From: a virus
Reading direction: 5' to 3' (one strand)
Length of the DNA: 35,010 nucleotides
IMG/VR virus record: IMGVR_UViG_3300030389_000429
Coordinates: 1 to 35,010 of that record
Shown: positions 1,437-18,886 of the stretch, piece after piece
How positions within the stretch are numbered: position 1 is the stretch's first letter
Layout of the letters: each line of letters opens with the position of its first letter
The notes under the pieces: model-generated
Seen by the model: only the letters and a program-made list of their open reading frames with translations
The model's database searches: none
What the model was told of the DNA's origin: nothing
Translations under genes and position numbers: made by a program

Positions 1437-1792
1437 TGAGTTTGTACGGAGAGTATTTAGGAAATGTTCGTAAACAAATGGAAGAAGAAACTAAAGTTTG
1501 TGATGACTGTGGAGAAGTGCATGGTGAAGAAGCACCTCCTTTTAAAGAAACACCTTCTTTGGATATGGTTAATCACCCAGAACATTATAATAAAGGTAAG
1601 TATGAAACCTATGATGTAATTGTGGATACATTAGGAAAGTATGAAGCTATATCTTATTGTCAAGGTAATATACTTAAATACATTATGAGGATGTGGAATA
1701 AAGATAAGCCTCTACAAGATGCAGAAAAAGCAGAGTGGTATTTAAAAGCTATGATAAAGTTATTAAAAGAAACTAAGGGAGTCAACTGGTAA
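1436..1792 (+). CDS. DUF3310 protein, T7 gp1.7-like nucleotide kinase family
   Basis: The 118-aa product contains the DUF3310 signature: MVNHPEHYNKGKYETYDVI followed by YCQGNILKYIMRMWNKDKP and DAEKAEWYLKAMIKLL. The family (SPBc2 and SaV-like proteins, T7 gp1.7) is linked in T7 to dTMP/dGMP kinase activity. The N-terminal 40 residues add a Cys pair and His (VCDDCGEVHGEE) of zinc-finger-like spacing, though only C-x2-C plus His is seen. It lies directly before ribonucleotide reductase with a 1-nt TAATG overlap, consistent with a job in deoxynucleotide supply. The family call is firm; the kinase activity here is inferred from T7. Confidence 0.85.
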   Translation: MSLYGEYLGNVRKQMEEETKVCDDCGEVHGEEAPPFKETPSLDMVNHPEHYNKGKYETYDVIVDTLGKYEAISYCQGNILKYIMRMWNKDKPLQDAEKAEWYLKAMIKLLKETKGVNW

Positions 1793-3537
1793 TGAAGTAT
1801 GACAAAATAGAAATTGATGTAACTCGAGATACATTATTAACTGAACAGGCAACACAACTCTTGAGAGATTATTACATGTTAAGTTCAGAAGTATCTCCAC
1901 AAGAGTCTTTTGCTAGGGCATCGTTAGCATACTGTGATGGTGACTATGATTTTGCTCAAAGGATATATGAATATGCTAGTAAGCAGTGGTTTATGTTCTC
2001 TAGTCCTGTTCTTAGTAATGCACCGATGCCTGGGGAACCTTTTAAAGCACTGCCTATTAGTTGTTTTCTAACCTATGTAGGAGATACGTTAGAAGACTTA
2101 ATCTCTCACAATACAGAAGTTGCATGGTTGTCTGTCAAGGGTGGTGGGGTTGGTGGTCACTGGTCTGATGTAAGGGCAGTCAGTGATAAAGCTCCAGGGC
2201 CAATCCCATTCCTCAAAGTTGTAGATAGTCAAATGACTGCATATAAACAAGGTAAAACTAGAAAGGGAAGCTATGCTGCGTACATGGACATTGATCATCC
2301 TGACATCGTTGAGTTTATTAATTTTAAGTTGCCTACTGGCGGTGATGCTAATAGAAAGTGTTTCAACTTATTCAATGCTGTTAATGTTACCGACAAGTTT
2401 ATGAAACGATTAGAAGCTAATGAGATGATCGAACTAACAGATCCTCATACAGGTCTATATCGAGATAGGATTTCAGCTAGAAAGTTATGGGAGAGAATTT
2501 TAGAAGCTAGATTTAGAACGGGTTCTCCATATTTAAATTTCATTGATACGGCTAACAGAGATTTGCCAAAGCCTCTCAAGGCATTGGGTTTAAAAATACA
2601 CGGTAGTAATTTGTGTAATGAGATTCATTTGCCTACAAATAAAGATAGAACTGCTGTATGTTGTTTGTCTTCAGTCAACTTAGAGAAGTATGATGAGTGG
2701 AGATCCACTCCTATGGTAAGGGACTTGATTCGTTTTCTGGATAATGTGCTACAGACATTCATTGATAATGCTCCAAGAGAAATAATTAAAGCTAAGATAA
2801 GTGCATTAAGAGAAAGGTCATTAGGGTTGGGGGCTATGGGATTTCATGGTTACTTACAAAAGTACAATACACCATTTGAAAGTCCTGTAGCTAAGTCATT
2901 AAACAACAGAATATTTAAGCATATAAAAAATGAAGCCTTATTGGAAACAAAGTTACTTGCAACAGAACGTGGTTCTCCAGGTGATCTTCATGGTACTGGT
3001 CTTCGTAACGCACATCTTCTTGCTATTGCTCCTAATGCCAATAGCAGTATTATTTGTGGTTGCACAGCTAGTATCGAACCTGTTAAGTCGAATGCGTATG
3101 TTCACAGGACAAGAGCAGGATCACACTTAATTAAAAATAAATATTTATCTACAGTGCTAGATAAGTATGATATGAATGATGAAACTACATGGAAAAGTAT
3201 CATTAACCATGAGGGTTCTGTTCAACATCTTGAGAATCTTACAGATTTTGAAAAAGATATTTACAAAACTGCATTTGAACTTAATCAGGAATGGGTTATC
3301 GAACATGCAGCTGATAGACAAAAGTACATATGTCAAGGACAATCTGTTAATCTATTCTTTCCTGCAGGAAGTGATAAGAGTTATGTCAACTCTGTTCACA
3401 TTCGGGCATGGAAGAGTGGCTTGAAAGGGTTGTATTATCTCCGTACTTCTTCTGGCAACCAGGCTGAGAAAGTGGGTACACAAGTTCAACGTCAAGCATT
3501 GAAAGATGCAGAGGAGTGTATAAGCTGTCATGGATAG
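1792..3537 (+). CDS. nrdA: Class I ribonucleoside-diphosphate reductase, alpha subunit
   Basis: The 581-aa catalytic subunit reduces ribonucleotides to deoxyribonucleotides together with the beta subunit encoded downstream. Visible catalytic residues, by comparison with E. coli NrdA: Cys91 (ISCF), the active-site triad Asn273-Cys275-Glu277 (NLCNEIHL), Cys290 (AVCCLSS), the radical-transfer tyrosine pair Y548-Y549 (GLYYLR), and the C-terminal redox pair Cys576/Cys579 (ECISCHG). The nucleotide-binding stretch APNANSSIICGCTASIEP lies at about 413-430. The N-terminal ATP-cone regulatory domain of full-length NrdA is absent, as in many phage enzymes, so dATP feedback inhibition is probably lost (inference). 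nrdB is about 1.7 kb away rather than adjacent. Confidence 0.96.
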   Translation: MKYDKIEIDVTRDTLLTEQATQLLRDYYMLSSEVSPQESFARASLAYCDGDYDFAQRIYEYASKQWFMFSSPVLSNAPMPGEPFKALPISCFLTYVGDTLEDLISHNTEVAWLSVKGGGVGGHWSDVRAVSDKAPGPIPFLKVVDSQMTAYKQGKTRKGSYAAYMDIDHPDIVEFINFKLPTGGDANRKCFNLFNAVNVTDKFMKRLEANEMIELTDPHTGLYRDRISARKLWERILEARFRTGSPYLNFIDTANRDLPKPLKALGLKIHGSNLCNEIHLPTNKDRTAVCCLSSVNLEKYDEWRSTPMVRDLIRFLDNVLQTFIDNAPREIIKAKISALRERSLGLGAMGFHGYLQKYNTPFESPVAKSLNNRIFKHIKNEALLETKLLATERGSPGDLHGTGLRNAHLLAIAPNANSSIICGCTASIEPVKSNAYVHRTRAGSHLIKNKYLSTVLDKYDMNDETTWKSIINHEGSVQHLENLTDFEKDIYKTAFELNQEWVIEHAADRQKYICQGQSVNLFFPAGSDKSYVNSVHIRAWKSGLKGLYYLRTSSGNQAEKVGTQVQRQALKDAEECISCHG

Positions 3538-5213: not shown

Positions 5214-5236
5214 CCCTTACAATGAGAGGAGCAAGT

Positions 5237-6214
5237 ATGAGTCTTACAGAACATTCAAAAGTATATAAACCATTTAAGTATCCCTGGGCAGTTGAGTTTG
5301 CTGTTAAATCAGAGAAAGCTCATTGGGGAGAATGGGAATGTAAACTACAGGATGATGTAGCTCAATGGCAATCTGGTAAATTGACTGACAAAGAAAAAAA
5401 TCATATCACTCAAATACTTAGATTGTTTACACAGAGTGATGTGGCTGTAGGTACAAATTATCTGGAGCATTACATACAGAAATTTAAGAACAATGAAATC
5501 AGAGCTATGCTAACTAGCTTTACAAATAGAGAGTTTGTGCATCAACGTAGCTATGCCCTACTCAATGATACTTTAGGATTACCTGAAGAAGAATACTCTG
5601 CTTTCTTAGAGTATGAGCAGATGAGAGATAAGATTGAATTTATGACAGACATGGATACTAACTCAGTTTCAGGATTAGGTAAGGCTATTGCCCGATCTGT
5701 AATGAATGAAGGTATGTCCCTTTTCTCAGCCTTTGTCATGCTCTTAAACTACCAGAGGTACGGCAAGATGAAGGGCATGTGTGAGATTGTAGAGTGGTCT
5801 GTACGAGATGAGACAATGCACTGTGAAGGCATGGTCAAGTTATTCAGGGAATACTGTAAAGAACACCCTAGAATAGTCAATGATCAGTTTAAAAAAGATA
5901 TATATCAGATGTTCAGGGATGGTGTGGCCCTGGAGGATGCTGTTGTAGACACGGCATTTGAGATGGGAGCAGTCGAGGGATTGTCAGCAGCTGATGTAAA
6001 ACAATATATCCGATACATAGCCGACAGAAGATTAATACAACTAGGTTTGAAAGGTAACTTTAAAGTTAAGGAGAACCCCCTAGAGTGGCTCGATTGGATT
6101 GTGGGTGGGGATACCCTAAAGAACTTCTTTGAGGGCGTTGTGACGGACTACAATGCCTCTGGGATGGTAGGTGATTGGGGATGGTCTACAACTAAAGAAA
6201 AAATAGCTGCATAA
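5237..6214 (+). CDS. nrdB: Class I ribonucleoside-diphosphate reductase, beta subunit
   Basis: The 325-aa radical-generating subunit partners the alpha subunit at 1792-3537. Diiron ligands and the radical tyrosine can be read directly: Asp68 (TQSDVAVG), Glu99 and His102 (REFVHQRSY), Tyr106 as the radical site, Glu158 (MNEGMSLF), and Glu192/His195 (DETMHCEG). The presence of the tyrosine suggests a class Ia/Ib-type enzyme rather than a tyrosine-less class Ic variant. Start: ATG 5237 has GAGGAG 6 nt upstream; the in-frame ATG at 5222 would put this Shine-Dalgarno inside the gene. An intrinsic terminator and putative promoter precede the gene, so its expression may be uncoupled from nrdA. Confidence 0.96.
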   Translation: MSLTEHSKVYKPFKYPWAVEFAVKSEKAHWGEWECKLQDDVAQWQSGKLTDKEKNHITQILRLFTQSDVAVGTNYLEHYIQKFKNNEIRAMLTSFTNREFVHQRSYALLNDTLGLPEEEYSAFLEYEQMRDKIEFMTDMDTNSVSGLGKAIARSVMNEGMSLFSAFVMLLNYQRYGKMKGMCEIVEWSVRDETMHCEGMVKLFREYCKEHPRIVNDQFKKDIYQMFRDGVALEDAVVDTAFEMGAVEGLSAADVKQYIRYIADRRLIQLGLKGNFKVKENPLEWLDWIVGGDTLKNFFEGVVTDYNASGMVGDWGWSTTKEKIAA

Positions 6215-6297: not shown

Positions 6298-6636
6298 ATG
6301 ACGAGCAAGAAGACAGCACCCCAGGATGAGGTCAGAATCATCCTACACGTTCCTGGTAAAGTTATAGACTTAACTAAGGAGTTCCCTAAACTAGGTGAAG
6401 TAGTTTCACGAGTGGTAAATGATAAGCTTTTAAATGAATATTTAAGAGTTACATATCATTCACATAAGATTACTAAAAAACCTAGGAAGATAGGACAAGG
6501 TGTGTATAGTGAGTCTACACACTCAGGAGTTTTGGAAATGCCTGTAGTAAAGACTATAGAGTTTCATTCTGATTATGTGACTTACGATCCTAAACATACA
6601 GACGAAATGTATAAGTCAAAAGATTTTAAGGGCTGA
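6298..6636 (+). CDS. Hypothetical phage protein (112 aa)
   Basis: ATG at 6298 is preceded by GAGGAG 7-8 nt upstream, a strong ribosome-binding site. The product begins MTSKKTAPQDEVRIILHVPG, with beta-strand-like segments (VRIILHVPG, VVKTIEFHSDYVTY) and a Lys-rich middle (SHKITKKPRKIGQGVY). No known domain or catalytic motif is visible. It follows nrdB by 83 nt and is closed by an intrinsic terminator at 6644-6664, so it ends the + strand replication transcript. Confidence 0.7.
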   Translation: MTSKKTAPQDEVRIILHVPGKVIDLTKEFPKLGEVVSRVVNDKLLNEYLRVTYHSHKITKKPRKIGQGVYSESTHSGVLEMPVVKTIEFHSDYVTYDPKHTDEMYKSKDFKG

Positions 6637-6643
6637 CTAAACT

Positions 6644-6664
6644 AGGGGCTTCGGCCCCTTTTTT
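6644..6664 (+). terminator. Intrinsic terminator between the 112-aa gene and cytochrome c
   Basis: AGGGGC, a TTCG tetraloop, GCCCCT and a T run form a compact rho-independent terminator with an unusually stable UUCG-type loop. It ends 15 nt before the cytochrome c start codon, leaving only the Shine-Dalgarno in between. The cytochrome gene is therefore expressed by read-through or from a promoter inside the preceding gene. Confidence 0.9.
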
Positions 6665-6679
6665 ATTAAGGAGCATTAA

Positions 6680-6985
6680 ATGATAAAGTTAATATTACTT
6701 CTACTAGTCATACTATTTAACCCAACATTTGCAGGTAATGCAAAGTTAGGTGAAGCAAAGTTCATGCAGAACTGCAAACAATGTCATGGCCCTGCAGGTA
6801 TGGGGATGGCTAGTTACCCAAAGGTATCTGGTAACAGTATTGAGTATACGATAGATAGGTTACAAACTTATAGGGATGGTATTGAGGTTGGGCCTAACTC
6901 TGCATTAATGATAATGATGGCTAGGCCTTTGTCGGATACAGATATTGAGAACTTAGCTGAGTATTTAAAAGAAGCAAAAAGGTAG
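6680..6985 (+). CDS. Secreted c-type cytochrome (class I, c553/c4-like)
   Basis: A 101-aa protein with a clear signal peptide (residues 1-18, MIKLILLLLVILFNPTFA) and one heme-attachment motif, Cys32-Lys-Gln-Cys35-His36, followed by GPAGMGMASYPKVSGN. The C-terminal helix has the class I pattern with a probable axial Met80 in MMARPLSDTDIENLAEYL. The mature protein of about 83 residues would be exported, receive heme through the host maturation system, and carry electrons in the periplasm, probably to or from the host respiratory chain. The start has AAGGAG about 7 nt upstream. The gene sits alone after a terminator and its stop abuts the stop of the convergent late module, a typical slot for a recently acquired auxiliary (moron-like) gene. 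Family is clear; electron partners and benefit to the phage are unknown. Confidence 0.9.
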   Translation: MIKLILLLLVILFNPTFAGNAKLGEAKFMQNCKQCHGPAGMGMASYPKVSGNSIEYTIDRLQTYRDGIEVGPNSALMIMMARPLSDTDIENLAEYLKEAKR

Positions 6986-9900
6986 TTATTTTAAAGGCTT
7001 TGTAGGTAGTATATATTCATAATTTCTGTGCTTTTCATACTCACCTGTCTCTTCTATACTTTTTCCTTTGCCCTCTCTCTTACGATACTCTTCATTTATT
7101 AACACTCTATCTTGAGGGGATAAGGATCGGTATTTAATATACTCTCTAGCTTTTAATCCTTTTACAGGGTCAATATCCATATAGGTTCTCTCTATTAGCA
7201 ACTTCTGTGTCCTTACAATTTTGTTTACTATATCTTTTACTGTGGCTCTTTTTTGATCTGGAGTTGCATCTTTAAATGCAGGTCTTGCTAGTGAACCCTC
7301 AGTTCTATCCATATATGTATTTAACTCTTTAATTATTTTAGGCAGTGAAGTTACAGTAATTATATTGTCGTATTGTTTAATTCCCGTTCTTGGAAATAAT
7401 CTAAAAGGTTCTAACCTTAAATTATTAAATAGTTTTTCTACTCTGGTTCTGTCTGGTGTTACTTTACCTGCTGTAAATACCTCCATAAATTTATATCTTT
7501 TTGGAGGGCCAGGTTTTAAGTATTGTTTTGCTAGAGGTAAAGTCTCTCTTAAATAAGGTATTTTATTTTGGATTTGACTTACAAAATTATCTACACTTAT
7601 TCCTACTGCATTTTTAAATTGATTAGTTAAAGTTTGTTCGTCTTCTGGTGCTACAAACTTTTCTTCTGCAAGAGGGTCAATAGCAGCATTAGGATCTCTA
7701 GCTTTTCTAGATTCGGGTAAGAATATTTCTACATAATCAAATGGAGTTTTTAAAACCTGTAAAGGTCTACCTGTTATATCAGCCATTAATTTACCAAAAG
7801 CAGTAGTTACATCTTCTACAGTTTTTACAGGTTCTTTAGAAAAAATATCTTGAAGTTTTTGTAGTGCAAAAACAAATCCATTAGAACCTCCTGGTATTCT
7901 CATACCTAATATGGCTTCTCCTAATTCTTTAACATTACTGTCTTTTACTTTGGGTAACGATCTTAAATTTTCAACTTGTTGTTCTGTTAAAAATCCTTTT
8001 CCGGTTTCTTTTATATAAGCATCATTTGCTGCTAGTATCTGAGGTCTTAGTCCGTCTACAATAGCTCTACTTAATTGAACTCCTACATTTAAAGGAAATA
8101 TACCTTGAGTGTTAAAGGTACTACCATCTTCCATTTTTATTTCGCCAGGTTCTGTATCTACATTTTTCATTTCATTCATTATTAAATACATAAGAGCACC
8201 TGTGCCTACTATAGCTTTAGTATTATTTTGAGTTCCCCTTCTTAATAATTGCTCTCCATTTAATTCCATGCTTTTTGCTTCTGCTTTTAGCTTCTTTGCT
8301 TTCTTAGCATCAGTTTCTTTACTAGCTTTTTTAAATAACTTTTCTGCATCGTTCATTAGTTTACTTCCAACTCTCATGTCTTTCATTCCAGAAAGAGCAC
8401 CGAAAGGACTTAATCTATATTGAAGTCTTAATGCATTTCCCATGAAGTTTGGAAAAGGAGTAAACATTACACTACCCAGAGGTATTGTTTCTACAAATTC
8501 AACAATGTTTGCTGTAAGGTGTTCGGCTTGAGTTTCAAAATCTTGTTGTAAAACATTTTTAGTTCTTTTAAATCTGTAAGACATAGTTGTTTTTGTTGCT
8601 TCGTCTACAGCATTTTTTAAAACTTCATTTGGTATAGCTACCTTATTAGCCATTACATCGTATATGTCTTTGTATGGCCCCTTCTTAAACACTCCTGCTT
8701 TTCTTAAATTATTTTCTACTGCAGCCATGAAAATAGCTTTTCTGAAAAAAGCATCTTGAGCCATGTTTATAGAATTAAAAAATCTAGTAACTGCCCACAA
8801 CTCTTTGTTGCCAGTTTCTTGCACTGCTTGATCTAAGGTTTCTAAATATCTAGGATTAAATTCTAAAAGTTTTTCTACTTCTACTCTCGTTCTTTTAGAT
8901 TGAAGTAACTTAGTTAATACAAGAGTGGAGTCTTTTATTACATCAGCTAAACCTGCCTGGTAATACTTGTAAGCTGCAAAGCCACCTTTAAAAGCACCTT
9001 GTTTATTTTTAACTTGCTTGTATACTTTTCTAGTATTAGCAATGTGAAACAAATTATTCTCTACTAAATCTGAAGCCATGTTTACAGTTAAGTTTGTTCC
9101 AGTACCTATTACGTTTCTAACTGTAGTACCCCATGCAGAAGTCAACATTACTTTAAAGTTTCTTTCAACATTCCTAATTATGTCAAAGAAAGGATTATGA
9201 ATCATTGGATTATTTACTTCGCCAAATAAACTTTTTAAAGCATTTCTAGTTTCAGGATCAAACTGAGTTAATCTGGTTGTAAATTTTCTTGATAAAGAGG
9301 ACAGAGCTGCTAGTCTTCTAGCACTCTCAGAGTCAGATATTCTTTGTGATTTTGCAAATTCAGTAAAGCTAAATCCTGCATCGTCTAAATCTTTTTGTAG
9401 CTTATCAGCTAGTTCTTTTGCACTAGTTCCCGATCTTGTAATAGCTCTTTCTAACACATCATCACTTACAGTATCTAAACTAGCTATTGTATTATTTAAA
9501 AAGTCAGTTACTTTTCCACCTGCTTTTAAATTTTGTTGGAAAAGTTCTTGATAATAATTAGGTTCTTCTTTTATTAATGCTTTTACAATCTCGACTGTTT
9601 GTTTACCAAACTCAGATTTTATTATAGGTGTTGTTAGAATTGTTTCAGGAGATACCTCTGTCATTTTACTTTTATCTCCAACAACAGGATGAAATAAATC
9701 TTCTATTTCTTTTTTATTCTTTTCAATAAGTTCAATTAAGTTCTCAGTCTTTTCATCCTTATCACCTCTTACTTTAGATCCTATAATTTTTTCTAATCTT
9801 AATTCTTCTGAGATATCTGGTTTGATAAGTGCTCTACTAGAAGCACCTCCCAGTATTGCATTAAATGTTGTAGCTATTGCATAGTCTAAAGGAGAAGATT

Positions 9901-10723
9901 CTATTTGTTCCCCTCTAGCTTGTCGTAACTCTCTGTCCATGTATACTTGAGCAGGAGCAATAGCACCCTCTGTAGTAGCACCTGCCATAAAGGATGTGCT
10001 TGTAGCTTTTGATCTTAACTGTTCTGCTTTTTTAAATGCTTCTTCTGCAGCTTTCACAGCACCAGGTTCTTTCTTAGCAAGTTCTACTAAACCTCTAGCT
10101 ACTTGAGGAGATACTGGCCCTTCTAATTTTTCTAGGGCTGCTGTAGCTTTTTTTGTTTGATTTGCAAACATTTGTTTTTTAGCCCTATCCATTAGAGCTT
10201 TCTCAGCAGCTCTTACAGAACCTTTAGATATTAAACTAGCTGCTCCGAATCCTAAATAATTTAAAGGGTCTAAAGCTAAACCTTTACCATAATCATATAT
10301 ACCTTTTACAAAACCTTTTGCTCCTCTTGATGTAGTTAAAGGTTTATAAAAAGGTTCTGTTCTTTCTAGTAAAGCATATACATCTTTAGCATTTTCTCTT
10401 CCTTGTTTTTTCTGGTTATATGTCCAGTCTAATTCTAAATATTGTCCGACAGTATTTACATTTACAAATCTTACATGGCTTTCTAATCTTTTTACATGCT
10501 GTAATCTAGACTCACCTTCTTGTCTTTTACCCGTGTCCCCGAATCTATTCATCATATATGAATTTATTTTTTCATACTTATCAGGATCTATAGCAATCTC
10601 AGCTAATGATACATAATCTGGAGTAGGTTCCTTTAATGCAGTTTCTATCTGAACTGTAAAAGGATCCGGTACATTTAAACTCTCAATGATTTTAGATTTT
10701 AAAGATTTTGTTTCAGATGCCAT
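6986..10723 (-). CDS. Giant internal virion / ejection protein candidate (1245 aa)
   Basis: The largest gene in the window and the last of the late module. The product is helical and charged, with Ala/Lys-rich stretches (RAAEKALMDRAKKQMFANQT) and Gly/hydrophobic stretches that may insert in or cross membranes, for example around residues 150-180 (DPLNYLGFGAASLISKG) and a middle region (SAWGTTVRNVIGTGTNLTVN). No lytic transglycosylase or protease motif is seen. Size, lack of catalytic motifs and position beside other long helical proteins resemble the internal core proteins (T7 gp15/gp16 class) ejected with podovirus DNA; this is inference. The start overlaps the upstream stop by 1 nt (TAATG). 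Confidence 0.7.
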   Translation of the reverse strand: MASETKSLKSKIIESLNVPDPFTVQIETALKEPTPDYVSLAEIAIDPDKYEKINSYMMNRFGDTGKRQEGESRLQHVKRLESHVRFVNVNTVGQYLELDWTYNQKKQGRENAKDVYALLERTEPFYKPLTTSRGAKGFVKGIYDYGKGLALDPLNYLGFGAASLISKGSVRAAEKALMDRAKKQMFANQTKKATAALEKLEGPVSPQVARGLVELAKKEPGAVKAAEEAFKKAEQLRSKATSTSFMAGATTEGAIAPAQVYMDRELRQARGEQIESSPLDYAIATTFNAILGGASSRALIKPDISEELRLEKIIGSKVRGDKDEKTENLIELIEKNKKEIEDLFHPVVGDKSKMTEVSPETILTTPIIKSEFGKQTVEIVKALIKEEPNYYQELFQQNLKAGGKVTDFLNNTIASLDTVSDDVLERAITRSGTSAKELADKLQKDLDDAGFSFTEFAKSQRISDSESARRLAALSSLSRKFTTRLTQFDPETRNALKSLFGEVNNPMIHNPFFDIIRNVERNFKVMLTSAWGTTVRNVIGTGTNLTVNMASDLVENNLFHIANTRKVYKQVKNKQGAFKGGFAAYKYYQAGLADVIKDSTLVLTKLLQSKRTRVEVEKLLEFNPRYLETLDQAVQETGNKELWAVTRFFNSINMAQDAFFRKAIFMAAVENNLRKAGVFKKGPYKDIYDVMANKVAIPNEVLKNAVDEATKTTMSYRFKRTKNVLQQDFETQAEHLTANIVEFVETIPLGSVMFTPFPNFMGNALRLQYRLSPFGALSGMKDMRVGSKLMNDAEKLFKKASKETDAKKAKKLKAEAKSMELNGEQLLRRGTQNNTKAIVGTGALMYLIMNEMKNVDTEPGEIKMEDGSTFNTQGIFPLNVGVQLSRAIVDGLRPQILAANDAYIKETGKGFLTEQQVENLRSLPKVKDSNVKELGEAILGMRIPGGSNGFVFALQKLQDIFSKEPVKTVEDVTTAFGKLMADITGRPLQVLKTPFDYVEIFLPESRKARDPNAAIDPLAEEKFVAPEDEQTLTNQFKNAVGISVDNFVSQIQNKIPYLRETLPLAKQYLKPGPPKRYKFMEVFTAGKVTPDRTRVEKLFNNLRLEPFRLFPRTGIKQYDNIITVTSLPKIIKELNTYMDRTEGSLARPAFKDATPDQKRATVKDIVNKIVRTQKLLIERTYMDIDPVKGLKAREYIKYRSLSPQDRVLINEEYRKREGKGKSIEETGEYEKHRNYEYILPTKPLK

Positions 10724-16141: not shown

Positions 16142-16596
16142 GCTTTTGGTTCTTTCCTTTCTAATATATCGTTTATTTCATTTGATTTTTGTTTACTGCC
16201 TACACTACTACCAAAGTAATATGCTAATACCATTGTGGTAGCACTATTTAAAGCACCCAAAACATAAACTAAAATATCTTTAGCCCCTGAGTTTACATCT
16301 ACATCTGCAAATATAATTACTAGAAAAAGACCAAAAGACATTGTTACTGTGCCTAGAGCAAGTAATGGTGTAACACACTTATTTAACCAACTAGCATTTT
16401 CACTAGTAGCAATAGCTGTTTCTCTTCTTCTAGCAGAATCTCTATCTGCATACTCAGCTTCTAGTTTAGCAAGTTCTCCTTTTTGCTCCATAGCTCTAAG
16501 TTCTTTCATAGCTTTAGCACGGGCAGTAGGATCGGGTATTAGTCTTTCGACTAGCTTTTCCCCAATAGGTAATAGTCCTGTTAATAAATTAAGCAA
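16138..16596 (-). CDS. 3TM-holin-family-like membrane protein (152 aa)
   Basis: The architecture matches the GTA/3TM holin type: an amphipathic N-terminus (LLTGLLPIGEKLVERLIPDP), a charged helical linker (LEAEYADRDSARRRETA), then two strong membrane helices at about 76-97 (TPLLALGTVTMSFGLFLVII) and 107-130 (ILVYVLGALNSATTMVLAYY), and a charged C-terminus. It lies within 800 nt of the M15 endolysin and a second holin-like gene. It could be the holin or an antiholin. Overlaps with both neighbours (8 and 4 nt) place it in the lysis operon. Confidence 0.7.
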   Translation of the reverse strand: MLNLLTGLLPIGEKLVERLIPDPTARAKAMKELRAMEQKGELAKLEAEYADRDSARRRETAIATSENASWLNKCVTPLLALGTVTMSFGLFLVIIFADVDVNSGAKDILVYVLGALNSATTMVLAYYFGSSVGSKQKSNEINDILERKEPKA

Positions 16597-16795
16597 CTTT
16601 ATCTCCTTTACTTGCTTTATAAAACTTTTTTTCTAATTTACAACCCTTATCTGTTTTTGGTTCAAACCAATTGAACCCTCTTTTAGTATTAGCACACCAA
16701 TATGTGCATAAGTCTCTTTCTATCCACTGTAGTTTGCAATAGTATTGATCTACATGTGGCACTAAGGTAGCCATCCAAAAAGCTATACTGATCAT
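16589..16795 (-). CDS. Small Cys-rich hypothetical protein (68 aa)
   Basis: The product (MISIAFWMATLVPHVDQYYC KL) has four cysteines and many aromatic residues (WIERDLCTYWCANTKRGFNW), with a basic C-terminus. The first 12-15 residues are hydrophobic and might act as a short membrane anchor or signal. The Cys pattern would suit a disulfide-bonded periplasmic protein such as a spanin-like lysis factor, but no lipobox is seen. It overlaps the TM protein upstream (ATGA) and the holin-like gene downstream (8 nt). Confidence 0.55.
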   Translation of the reverse strand: MISIAFWMATLVPHVDQYYCKLQWIERDLCTYWCANTKRGFNWFEPKTDKGCKLEKKFYKASKGDKVA

Positions 16796-17298
16796 TTACT
16801 TGCTTCCACAACTGCTGTCCATAAAAAGTGACATAGATAAATTAAAACTAAAACTAAACTTCCAATAAAGATTCCCATCTTGGTGTTATATAAAAAATTC
16901 TTCCTTCTTCGCATCTGATTATAAACTTCTCGTTCTCTCTTTTTTTTAATATCCCTTCGCATCTTGATAAATTTTCTATATCCCTGTATACCTCCCCAAT
17001 CTGCTGTCCAGTTTGCTGTAAAGAACTCTCGAATGTATTTTTCTTGTTCACGAATTTTTTCCTCTGCTATAATGCTATCAAATACTTCTTGAGTTGCTGA
17101 TCTCTTATATGTTAATTTTTTAAATATCCCTGGTTTACTTTTCTCTTGAGAGATTACTTCTTTTACATCTTCAATATGTCCTGCCCATTTAGACAGAGTT
17201 CTATATATCTCTTCAACGTCTTTGCCTACTGCTACTGCTTTTTTGAGAGTAGTGTAGCAAACAGAGGCTGCTGACAATGCTGTGATAGGATCTATCAC
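16792..17298 (-). CDS. Membrane-anchored marine-phage protein (168 aa), GTG start
   Basis: The product starts MIDPITALSAASVCYTTLKK, has a long basic helical middle (QGYRKFIKMRRDIKKKRERE), and ends with one clear membrane helix (MGIFIGSLVLVLIYLCHFLW, about 141-160) and a short tail. Proteins of this layout, with an MIDPI-A opening and a C-terminal anchor, recur near lysis genes in marine phages; the role is unknown and a spanin or lysis-accessory job is a guess. GTG at 17298 is the start, six nt after the previous stop. No good Shine-Dalgarno is seen, and the GTG lies inside a perfect 8-bp hairpin (17281-17299). Confidence 0.7.
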   Translation of the reverse strand: MIDPITALSAASVCYTTLKKAVAVGKDVEEIYRTLSKWAGHIEDVKEVISQEKSKPGIFKKLTYKRSATQEVFDSIIAEEKIREQEKYIREFFTANWTADWGGIQGYRKFIKMRRDIKKKREREVYNQMRRRKNFLYNTKMGIFIGSLVLVLIYLCHFLWTAVVEASK

Positions 17299-17723: not shown

Positions 17724-18296
17724 TTAGTAAACCCATGATACATAACTGTATCTTGTACCTTCAATAATTGGTGTAACTTTATGTGGGTACATAAAATTAG
17801 AAGGAAACATTAGCACTGCCCCTTCCGGTATTTTTATTTTTTCTGTTTCCCACATAATAAAGTCTCCCCCTTTATAATCTTCATTAAGACAACCTACTAT
17901 TGATAATGTAGGTATACCTTTTAAACTACCATCAAATATGCTTTGTATATGATCACAATGTATTTTCATTTTTGTTTCTAGGTCATACTTATTAAACCTA
18001 ACTTCTGTATATCCTGTCCATCCACCCCACCAAGAATTACACATTTTAAAATCTTTAGTTATATATTTTTCTATTACATACCATAATTTATTTTGTAAAG
18101 TTGTTTTAATAACTGAGTCTAAATAACCCATATCAAATTCATTTTCATAACTACGATTTCTATTACCTTTATATTGATAAAAATAATGCTTTTTCCATTC
18201 TATTTTTTTTAATTCTTTTATTGTAGAAGTACAAAAATCTTTATCAAAAACATTTTCATATACTTTTACATAGTCCCTGATATTGCTTGGTATCAC
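17724..18296 (-). CDS. 2OG-Fe(II) oxygenase, prolyl-4-hydroxylase-like (190 aa)
   Basis: The catalytic residues of the P4H-type fold can be read: His113 and Asp115 (KIHCDHIQS), distal His172 (MYPHKV) and Arg182 (EGTRYSYVSW), which would bind 2-oxoglutarate. The GGDFIMWE segment matches the typical G-G-(E/D)-F/L strand. It would hydroxylate a protein or other substrate using oxygen and 2-oxoglutarate. The start is a GTG that overlaps the previous stop (GTGA). It is one of two adjacent, different oxygenases directly after the adhesin and chaperone genes, so virion or tail-fibre modification is a reasonable but unproven idea. Confidence 0.88.
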   Translation of the reverse strand: MIPSNIRDYVKVYENVFDKDFCTSTIKELKKIEWKKHYFYQYKGNRNRSYENEFDMGYLDSVIKTTLQNKLWYVIEKYITKDFKMCNSWWGGWTGYTEVRFNKYDLETKMKIHCDHIQSIFDGSLKGIPTLSIVGCLNEDYKGGDFIMWETEKIKIPEGAVLMFPSNFMYPHKVTPIIEGTRYSYVSWVY

Positions 18297-18886
18297 AAAT
18301 GCAATCCAGTAAGTTCTGTATTTTCTCCTATAGACCCTTTAATAAATGTATTAAAAGATAAACTAATTCTTTCTTTACCAACAACTTTTTCAACCATGTG
18401 AATTAAGTCAGAAGGAAAGATAACTAAATCATTTGTTCCTGTTTCAAACCACCAACTTTCACTATTAAAAAGGTTATACTCTTTTGCAGGTATTCTTATT
18501 TGTTTATAGTCTTCTTTAAAAAAATAAATTTTATCTTTTGCTTTATCAGCTTGAACATAAAACACACCAGATATAAAACTATTTGGATGAGCATGTTTAT
18601 GATGAAACTGACCCTCCTTAGTATAGTTGCACCATGATTGAGTTATATAAGGTTCAACACTATTTTTAGGGGCATGTATATTTTTAAAATAGTCTTTTAA
18701 ACATTTCTCAATAAATTGTTTTATTTCTTTCATTTCTCTGTTTTTTAAAATATTATTATCTATAGATGTTGTATTTCCTGTGTTGCTTCTTGTCTCTTGT
18801 TCAACTAAAAACTTTATTTCTTTTTCTGTAATTCCTTTATATTTAAAAAATGTAACCGCAGTCGGAAACAACGAATGTGTCCTCAA
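18293..18886 (-). CDS. 2OG-Fe(II) oxygenase, TIGR02466-like (197 aa), TTG start
   Basis: The protein follows the TIGR02466/2OG-FeII_Oxy_5 pattern: a Leu-Phe-Pro opening (MRTHSLFPTAVTFF), QSWCNYTKEGQFHHKHAHPN with metal ligands around His98/His100, SGVFYVQ, LVIFPSDLIH with the distal His163, and KERISLSFN with Arg173 for 2-oxoglutarate. This family is common in marine phages. Start: no in-frame ATG exists near the N-terminus; TTG 18886 overlaps the upstream stop (TTGA), with a GGGGCG-type sequence just upstream. It is coupled to the P4H-like gene by a 4-nt overlap. Confidence 0.85.
   Translation of the reverse strand: MRTHSLFPTAVTFFKYKGITEKEIKFLVEQETRSNTGNTTSIDNNILKNREMKEIKQFIEKCLKDYFKNIHAPKNSVEPYITQSWCNYTKEGQFHHKHAHPNSFISGVFYVQADKAKDKIYFFKEDYKQIRIPAKEYNLFNSESWWFETGTNDLVIFPSDLIHMVEKVVGKERISLSFNTFIKGSIGENTELTGLHL

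Follow-up and report, generated by a model that had tools for sequence, protein, structure and literature searches.

In cyanophages, electron-transport genes reach high expression alongside nrdA and nrdB, with nucleotide synthesis as the proposed sink (PMC5082946). The gene described here, cytC, is comparable to psbA, psbD and other cyanophage genes in that an electron-transport gene is carried with ribonucleotide reductase (RNR) genes, as we read it to fund nucleotides; the cyanophage AMGs are photosynthetic, whereas cytC would encode a respiratory periplasmic carrier in phages of heterotrophs. Virus-linked respiratory genes are already known, with cbb3 oxidase genes found in ocean viromes (PMC3474794) and ccoP and cydAB appearing in lists (PMC12713726). 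These viral cbb3 and cydAB genes encode oxidase subunits and come mostly from reads or annotations, whereas cytC encodes a stand-alone soluble carrier in a conserved gene context. The genes iscU/erpA have been reported from HMO-2011-type genomes (PMC9038755) and from other marine viral genomes (PMC5332604), and neither the HMO-2011-type survey (PMC9038755) nor the pelagimyophage survey (PMC7029224) mentions a cytochrome. The searchable literature, outside of which most subscription journals lie, yielded no report of this stand-alone cytochrome or of an association between it and RNR.

The gene lies in a 35,010-base IMG/VR virus record (the window, that is, the whole stretch of DNA analysed), an incomplete contig that ends short of the DNA polymerase gene, whose product in the HMO-2011-type group has a partial DnaJ domain. 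It is flanked by phage genes, among them those for the RNR large and small subunits, the portal and the major head protein, and its place is the end of the early/replication module (plus strand), facing the late module (minus strand), just as the original prediction had it. The terminator upstream of cytC and the abutting convergent stops were also correctly called, with cytC ending at 6985 and the opposing ORF at 6986 (gap of 0 nt). The relevant features are as follows:

1792-3537, plus strand: nrdA, RNR large subunit (PF02867, E = 3.8e-114)
5222-6214, plus strand: nrdB, class I RNR small subunit (PF00268, E = 2.5e-72), upstream neighbour of cytC
6298-6636, plus strand: g6298, a 112-aa ORF with no family match, separating nrdB from cytC in just two contigs, the window and L006
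6644-6665, plus strand: intrinsic terminator between g6298 and cytC (hairpin 6644-6659 with UUCG loop, then T run)
6668-6673, plus strand: Shine-Dalgarno AAGGAG of cytC, as read from the sequence
6680-6985, plus strand: cytC, predicted exported monoheme class I cytochrome c (101-aa precursor, ATG start; PF00034, 8yts, AlphaFold2)
6680-6733, plus strand: putative Sec-type signal peptide (residues 1-18; TFA would precede the cleavage site)
6773-6787, plus strand: haem-binding CKQCH (residues 32-36; C32, C35, H36), invariant in 32 of 32 aligned relatives
6908-6910, plus strand: Met77, probable sixth haem ligand, within GPNSALMIMMA; the sole invariant Met of the alignment
6986-10723, minus strand: late-module ORF of 1245 aa, converging on cytC, with abutting stop codons

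No RNA elements or tRNAs were found in the window. Its late module includes two adjacent 2OG-Fe(II) oxygenase genes at 17724-18886 (PF13640, PF13759).

The cytC product is a cytochrome c by profile (Cytochrom_C PF00034, E = 5.7e-11, 44 bits against a cut-off of 21.3; Cytochrome_CBB3, E = 1.9e-8), and the solved structures nearest to it by sequence are 8yts (5.8e-18), cytochrome c546/556 of Thioalkalivibrio paradoxus, with 38 to 43% identity to the mature protein, followed by cytochrome c4 domains. The signal peptide boundary is predicted to fall between MIKLILLLLVILFNPTFA and GN, and a hydrophobic N-terminus and a mature start of G-(N/D) are common to the cytC homologues in the alignment; the mature protein would comprise about 83 residues (9.1 kDa, near neutral). 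An AlphaFold2 model of the apo form, without haem, built from the alignment of 32 relatives, has a mean pLDDT of 84, and VIA-align superposes its residues 18 to 101 on 1cno (Z of 10.4, 2.6 Å), 2zzs (9.9) and 8yts (9.8). With 8yts and the monoheme cytochromes c552/c554 (1cno, 2zzs) cytC shares a single haem site, CxxCH, a C-terminal Met and, in the model, the class I fold, so that motifs, profile score and predicted fold all assign it to the class I c-type cytochromes. It differs from 8yts, 1cno and 2zzs in being phage-encoded and in the stretch GPNSALMIMMA, which is confined to phages and to cellular relatives linked to a GSDH-family sugar dehydrogenase. Together with the portal gene in the window, the PF00034 and 8yts matches and the haem motifs bear out the original prediction of a complete secreted class I c-type cytochrome in a phage.

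The 32 relatives were also informative about haem binding, as homologues lacking it had been named as something that could overturn the prediction, and none appeared: C32, C35, H36 and Met77 are invariant throughout, and Met77 pairs with the Met of 8yts. Because it is invariant together with C32, C35 and H36, Met77 is the probable sixth (axial) haem ligand. The axial residue had originally been given as Met80; the C-terminal motif, GPNSALMIMMARPLSD, was rightly recognized, and the ligand itself is more likely Met77, with Met79 and Met80 following, if precursor numbering was meant. Several better-known identities were considered and rejected. With a single CxxCH, cytC is no diheme cytochrome c4, although it works as a lone c4-like domain, and it scores far below the equivalog cut-offs both for CcoP (cbb3 oxidase subunit III, TIGR00782; 29.8 bits versus at least 179.95) and for cyanobacterial cytochrome c6 PetJ (NF045930; 27.4 bits versus at least 135). 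PHROGs holds no family for cytC.

The window derives from a real phage related to the HMO-2011-type podoviruses, its portal being 71 to 72% identical to those of Roseobacter phage CRP-1 and SAR116 phage HMO-2011. Both of these phages resemble the window in having a plus-strand early module with RNR at its end and a converging minus-strand late module, and both differ from it in carrying a class II RNR in place of the window's class I nrdA and nrdB. Since the source is a metagenomic contig only, an assembly chimera or host contamination had to be weighed, and the original prediction had itself pointed to a possible chimera at 6640-6990. We rule this out because nrdB-cytC junctions recur in contigs from independent metagenomes (L002-L007, L047, L050-L053 and L063), several of which run on into the same converging late gene, homologues of the 1245-aa late ORF also coming after cytC in L003, L005, L007, L047 and L050. 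A chimera at this locus has, in our view, practically no chance of being real.

The same contigs bear on the age of the gene. The nrdB stop and the cytC start overlap as ATGA in L002, with L003 and L047 arranged likewise, and the two genes overlap or almost do so in L002, L003, L005 and L007. The terminator hairpin is found again in L006 and is absent at the abutting junctions of L002, L003 and L047, and g6298 and the strong UUCG terminator look to be a single small insert, gene and terminator together, restricted to the window and L006. As nrdB and cytC abut in relatives and the insert intervenes only in this pair, cytC is the older resident and the terminator the newcomer. We further observe that dN/dS between cytC copies is mostly 0.05 to 0.25 (the L045-L046 pair is very close, with too few changes to judge), that synonymous divergence reaches saturation, and that cytC is therefore under purifying selection. 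The late acquisition originally proposed for cytC thus has to be given up, since the gene is common to several podovirus sub-lineages and these form a well supported clade inside a larger viral one; distribution, tree and synonymous divergence rule out a recent single acquisition, and the recent part of the locus is g6298 with the terminator.

A single scan with the cytC protein recovered 14 viral (50 to 96% identity) and 24 cellular loci, and a profile scan extended the viral set to 73 cytochrome loci in two families, with family 1 (50 to 96% identity) including the window. Searching 50,697 annotated phage records turned up no match to either cytochrome family. The original statement that such cytochromes are rarely described therefore holds for annotated phages and falls short for uncultivated ones, in which all 73 loci are found. 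PHROGs matches, including a late sigma factor, an SbcC-like nuclease, primase, DNA polymerase and head closure proteins, support the phage nature of the loci. In one of them (L013:210-842, identical to L059), the cytochrome breaks off at PLSDID and runs on in frame into the nuclease-like gene that comes next. A deletion across a short stretch of shared sequence apparently joined the two, although the fusion could be an assembly error.

In a tree of 42 sequences, 15 of them cellular (six cellular sequences from the genome search were left out), 19 viral family 1 sequences form a virus-only clade (support 100/99) nested among cellular sequences. With phage genes on both sides and this nested position, cytC has the structure of an AMG. 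The 12 podoviral sequences, including the window, form a clade (100/97) inside a myophage grade, the deeper order being moderately supported, which suggests transfer from myophages to podophages. The sequences L014/L015 and L060, the latter on a long branch, look like separate acquisitions by their tree positions. In addition, the window carries two small genes close to its lysis region (16792-17298 and 16589-16795) with relatives that neighbour the cytochrome in myophages and lineage C podoviruses (L010, L011, L012, L014 and L045), and their presence in all three points to gene exchange between these groups.

Many of the viral cytochromes have nrd genes as neighbours. In podoviruses of lineages A and B, cytC follows the class I gene nrdB; in lineage C a class II RNR (nrdJ) lies 135 bases upstream of cytC (L044, L045 and L048). 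Among the 73 viral contigs, counted after removal of same-contig repeats, an nrd gene lies within 3 kb on the same strand in 43, the contigs being related and not independent trials; where at least 3 kb is available on both sides of the cytochrome, the count is 22 of 34. For comparison, roughly 12% of HMO-2011 genes fall within 3 kb of its RNR. Glutaredoxin is present in 27 of the 73 contigs and an Fe-S or ferritin gene in 9, and at least one of nrd, glutaredoxin, Fe-S/ferritin or a small secreted protein in 59. Large myophages (L009, on a 144-kb contig) have a cassette in which cytC is accompanied by this small secreted protein, IscU and an A-type Fe-S carrier. The small protein (VPPPRGIDPVEAK..., at least two Cys, no family) stands directly before the cytochrome or the Isc cassette in myophages (L009:6851-7162, L010:7652-7963, L011, L014 and L058), and it may be a partner of the cytochrome.

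The linkage to nrd genes extends to both RNR classes and both cytochrome families, and it involves at least three phage lineages. In HMO-2011 and CRP-1, mazG and small hypothetical genes occupy the slot behind RNR, with no cytochrome, whereas cytC occupies it in the window, so that the RNR linkage of the podoviral genes may partly reflect an accessory slot. It could follow that cytC is a selfish or neutral gene with no definite metabolic role, sitting in a variable position where the early module ends, and the second insertion beside it (g6298 and its terminator) would fit such a history. We consider this improbable, given the strong purifying selection, the invariant haem ligands and the retention of cytC across myophages and podoviruses of different RNR classes.

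Family 2 cytochromes (L078:5770-6210, L096:5773-6210, L065:5770-6219, L093:5770-6213 and L109:5770-6213) are about 147 aa long, with an N-terminal membrane segment, a conserved CxxCY stretch (C(T/Y)GxCYxxY) and then a cytochrome c domain with the haem motifs LWAGCAACHGQ and MSSTMWAQA; the CxxCY is perhaps a degenerate haem site or a disulfide. No full-length match was found in 274 gammaproteobacterial genomes, and the family is apparently virus-enriched. Its gene orders are nrdA-nrdB-cytC-glutaredoxin, nrdA-cytC-nrdB or cytC-ferritin-IscS-IscU, the last exemplified by L065:5770-8383, where cytochrome c, a ferritin-like protein, an IscS-like cysteine desulfurase and IscU form one same-strand run. 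Neighbours of this kind in other phages (IscU, IscA, IscS, ferritin-like protein, glutaredoxin and redoxin) raise the question of whether cytC is a protective redox protein, active in peroxide or NO scavenging or in haem/iron handling, and belongs with ferritin, glutaredoxin, peroxiredoxin and Isc proteins to a cassette for iron and redox functions. We give this little credence: the conserved Met ligation predicts a low-spin electron carrier, not a peroxidase, and these neighbours are cytoplasmic, whereas the cytC product appears to be exported.

The cellular relatives of cytC have a different neighbourhood. The protein scan found 15 close ones, and in 13 of the 13 with a long enough contig the gene directly downstream encodes a secreted protein of about 435 aa that is a GSDH (PF07995, E = 5.1e-50 for L022). 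The same adjacency is seen in six further genomes (L115-L120), and a fragmentary match in L039 is also followed by GSDH. A periplasmic sugar dehydrogenase thus probably passed its electrons to the cellular parent. In marine Alpha- and Gammaproteobacteria, the GSDH-linked cytochromes (L022 from a Pelagibacteraceae MAG, L017 and L028) have 53 to 68% identity to cytC, share GPNSALMIMMA and form its parent clade. The phage gene therefore has the signature and tree position of the GSDH-linked clade and lacks the adjacent GSDH: cellular copies stand directly before GSDH, whereas phage copies stand beside nrd or isc genes. No GSDH (PF07995) was found in 19 phage records (the window and 18 others), with the control matching in six genomes, and the protein scan revealed no dehydrogenase partner in the viral contigs.

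These results bear on whether the phage cytochrome is the specific acceptor of a host periplasmic GSDH-family (PQQ-type) sugar dehydrogenase, boosting sugar oxidation with bc1 respiration uninvolved. All evaluable cellular relatives of at least 47% identity lie directly upstream of GSDH, and GPNSALMIMMA is common to GSDH-linked cells and phages. Still, we regard this as unlikely, in view of the missing GSDH in the phage records and viral contigs, the linkage of the phage genes to nrd rather than to sugar metabolism, and the patchiness of the cellular gene, such that many hosts may lack the partner. At E = 1e-22 it was found in 9 of 385 alphaproteobacterial and 2 of 369 gammaproteobacterial genomes. 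Coverage of SAR11 comprised six genomes of that order.

Haem c is attached in the periplasm (Ccm system), and RNR, glutaredoxin and 2OG enzymes are cytoplasmic. The adjacency of cytC to nrd and grx might nonetheless suggest that its product stays in the cytoplasm and passes electrons to one of these enzymes, and an effect on redox balance for 2OG/RNR-dependent metabolism was among the roles first suggested. Direct redox service to RNR or 2OG enzymes is implausible, and we judge a cytoplasmic cytC product extremely improbable, since a signal peptide or membrane anchor is found in all copies. If cytC is exported to the periplasm, it cannot directly serve cytoplasmic RNR, glutaredoxin or 2OG enzymes, and the nrd linkage is then best read as metabolic.

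On balance we favour, with moderate confidence, the explanation that cytC is a host-derived AMG encoding a respiratory periplasmic electron carrier that fuels dNTP synthesis, in the manner of the cyanophage photosynthetic genes; a host respiratory role, one of those originally offered, remains in our inference the best reading. Once expressed, the precursor would be exported by the host Sec system and receive its haem from the host's cytochrome c maturation system. Via cytC, electrons would then reach the host cytochrome c oxidase from the host bc1 complex and/or a periplasmic GSDH-family sugar dehydrogenase, the cell would keep up its proton-motive force and ATP synthesis after host gene expression falls, and the resulting energy and reducing power would pay for the large dNTP demand served by the adjoining RNR genes. 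As to the donor, bc1 or host GSDH, ancestry would favour GSDH, while the viral neighbours say nothing on sugars. Several points speak against this respiratory explanation: the terminator between g6298 and cytC in the window means that read-through or another promoter is needed, the podoviral RNR linkage may partly reflect an accessory slot, and the cellular relatives are tied to a sugar dehydrogenase and are not known as the main bc1-oxidase carrier.

More tentatively, and with somewhat less than even confidence, we propose a general "respiration for dNTPs" module in marine phages of heterotrophs, in which two unrelated-looking c-type cytochrome subfamilies were captured independently in at least three lineages and set beside RNR (class I or II), glutaredoxin or Fe-S genes, as the respiratory counterpart of the cyanophage photosynthesis genes. 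In several phage groups, the locus and its relatives repeatedly tie ribonucleotide reductase genetically to an apparently exported respiratory protein. If the respiratory explanation is true, phages of the most abundant ocean heterotrophs would sustain host respiration through a carrier of their own, as cyanophages do photosynthesis, and cytC would offer a concrete, testable way into the question of how infected heterotrophic cells maintain their energy supply.
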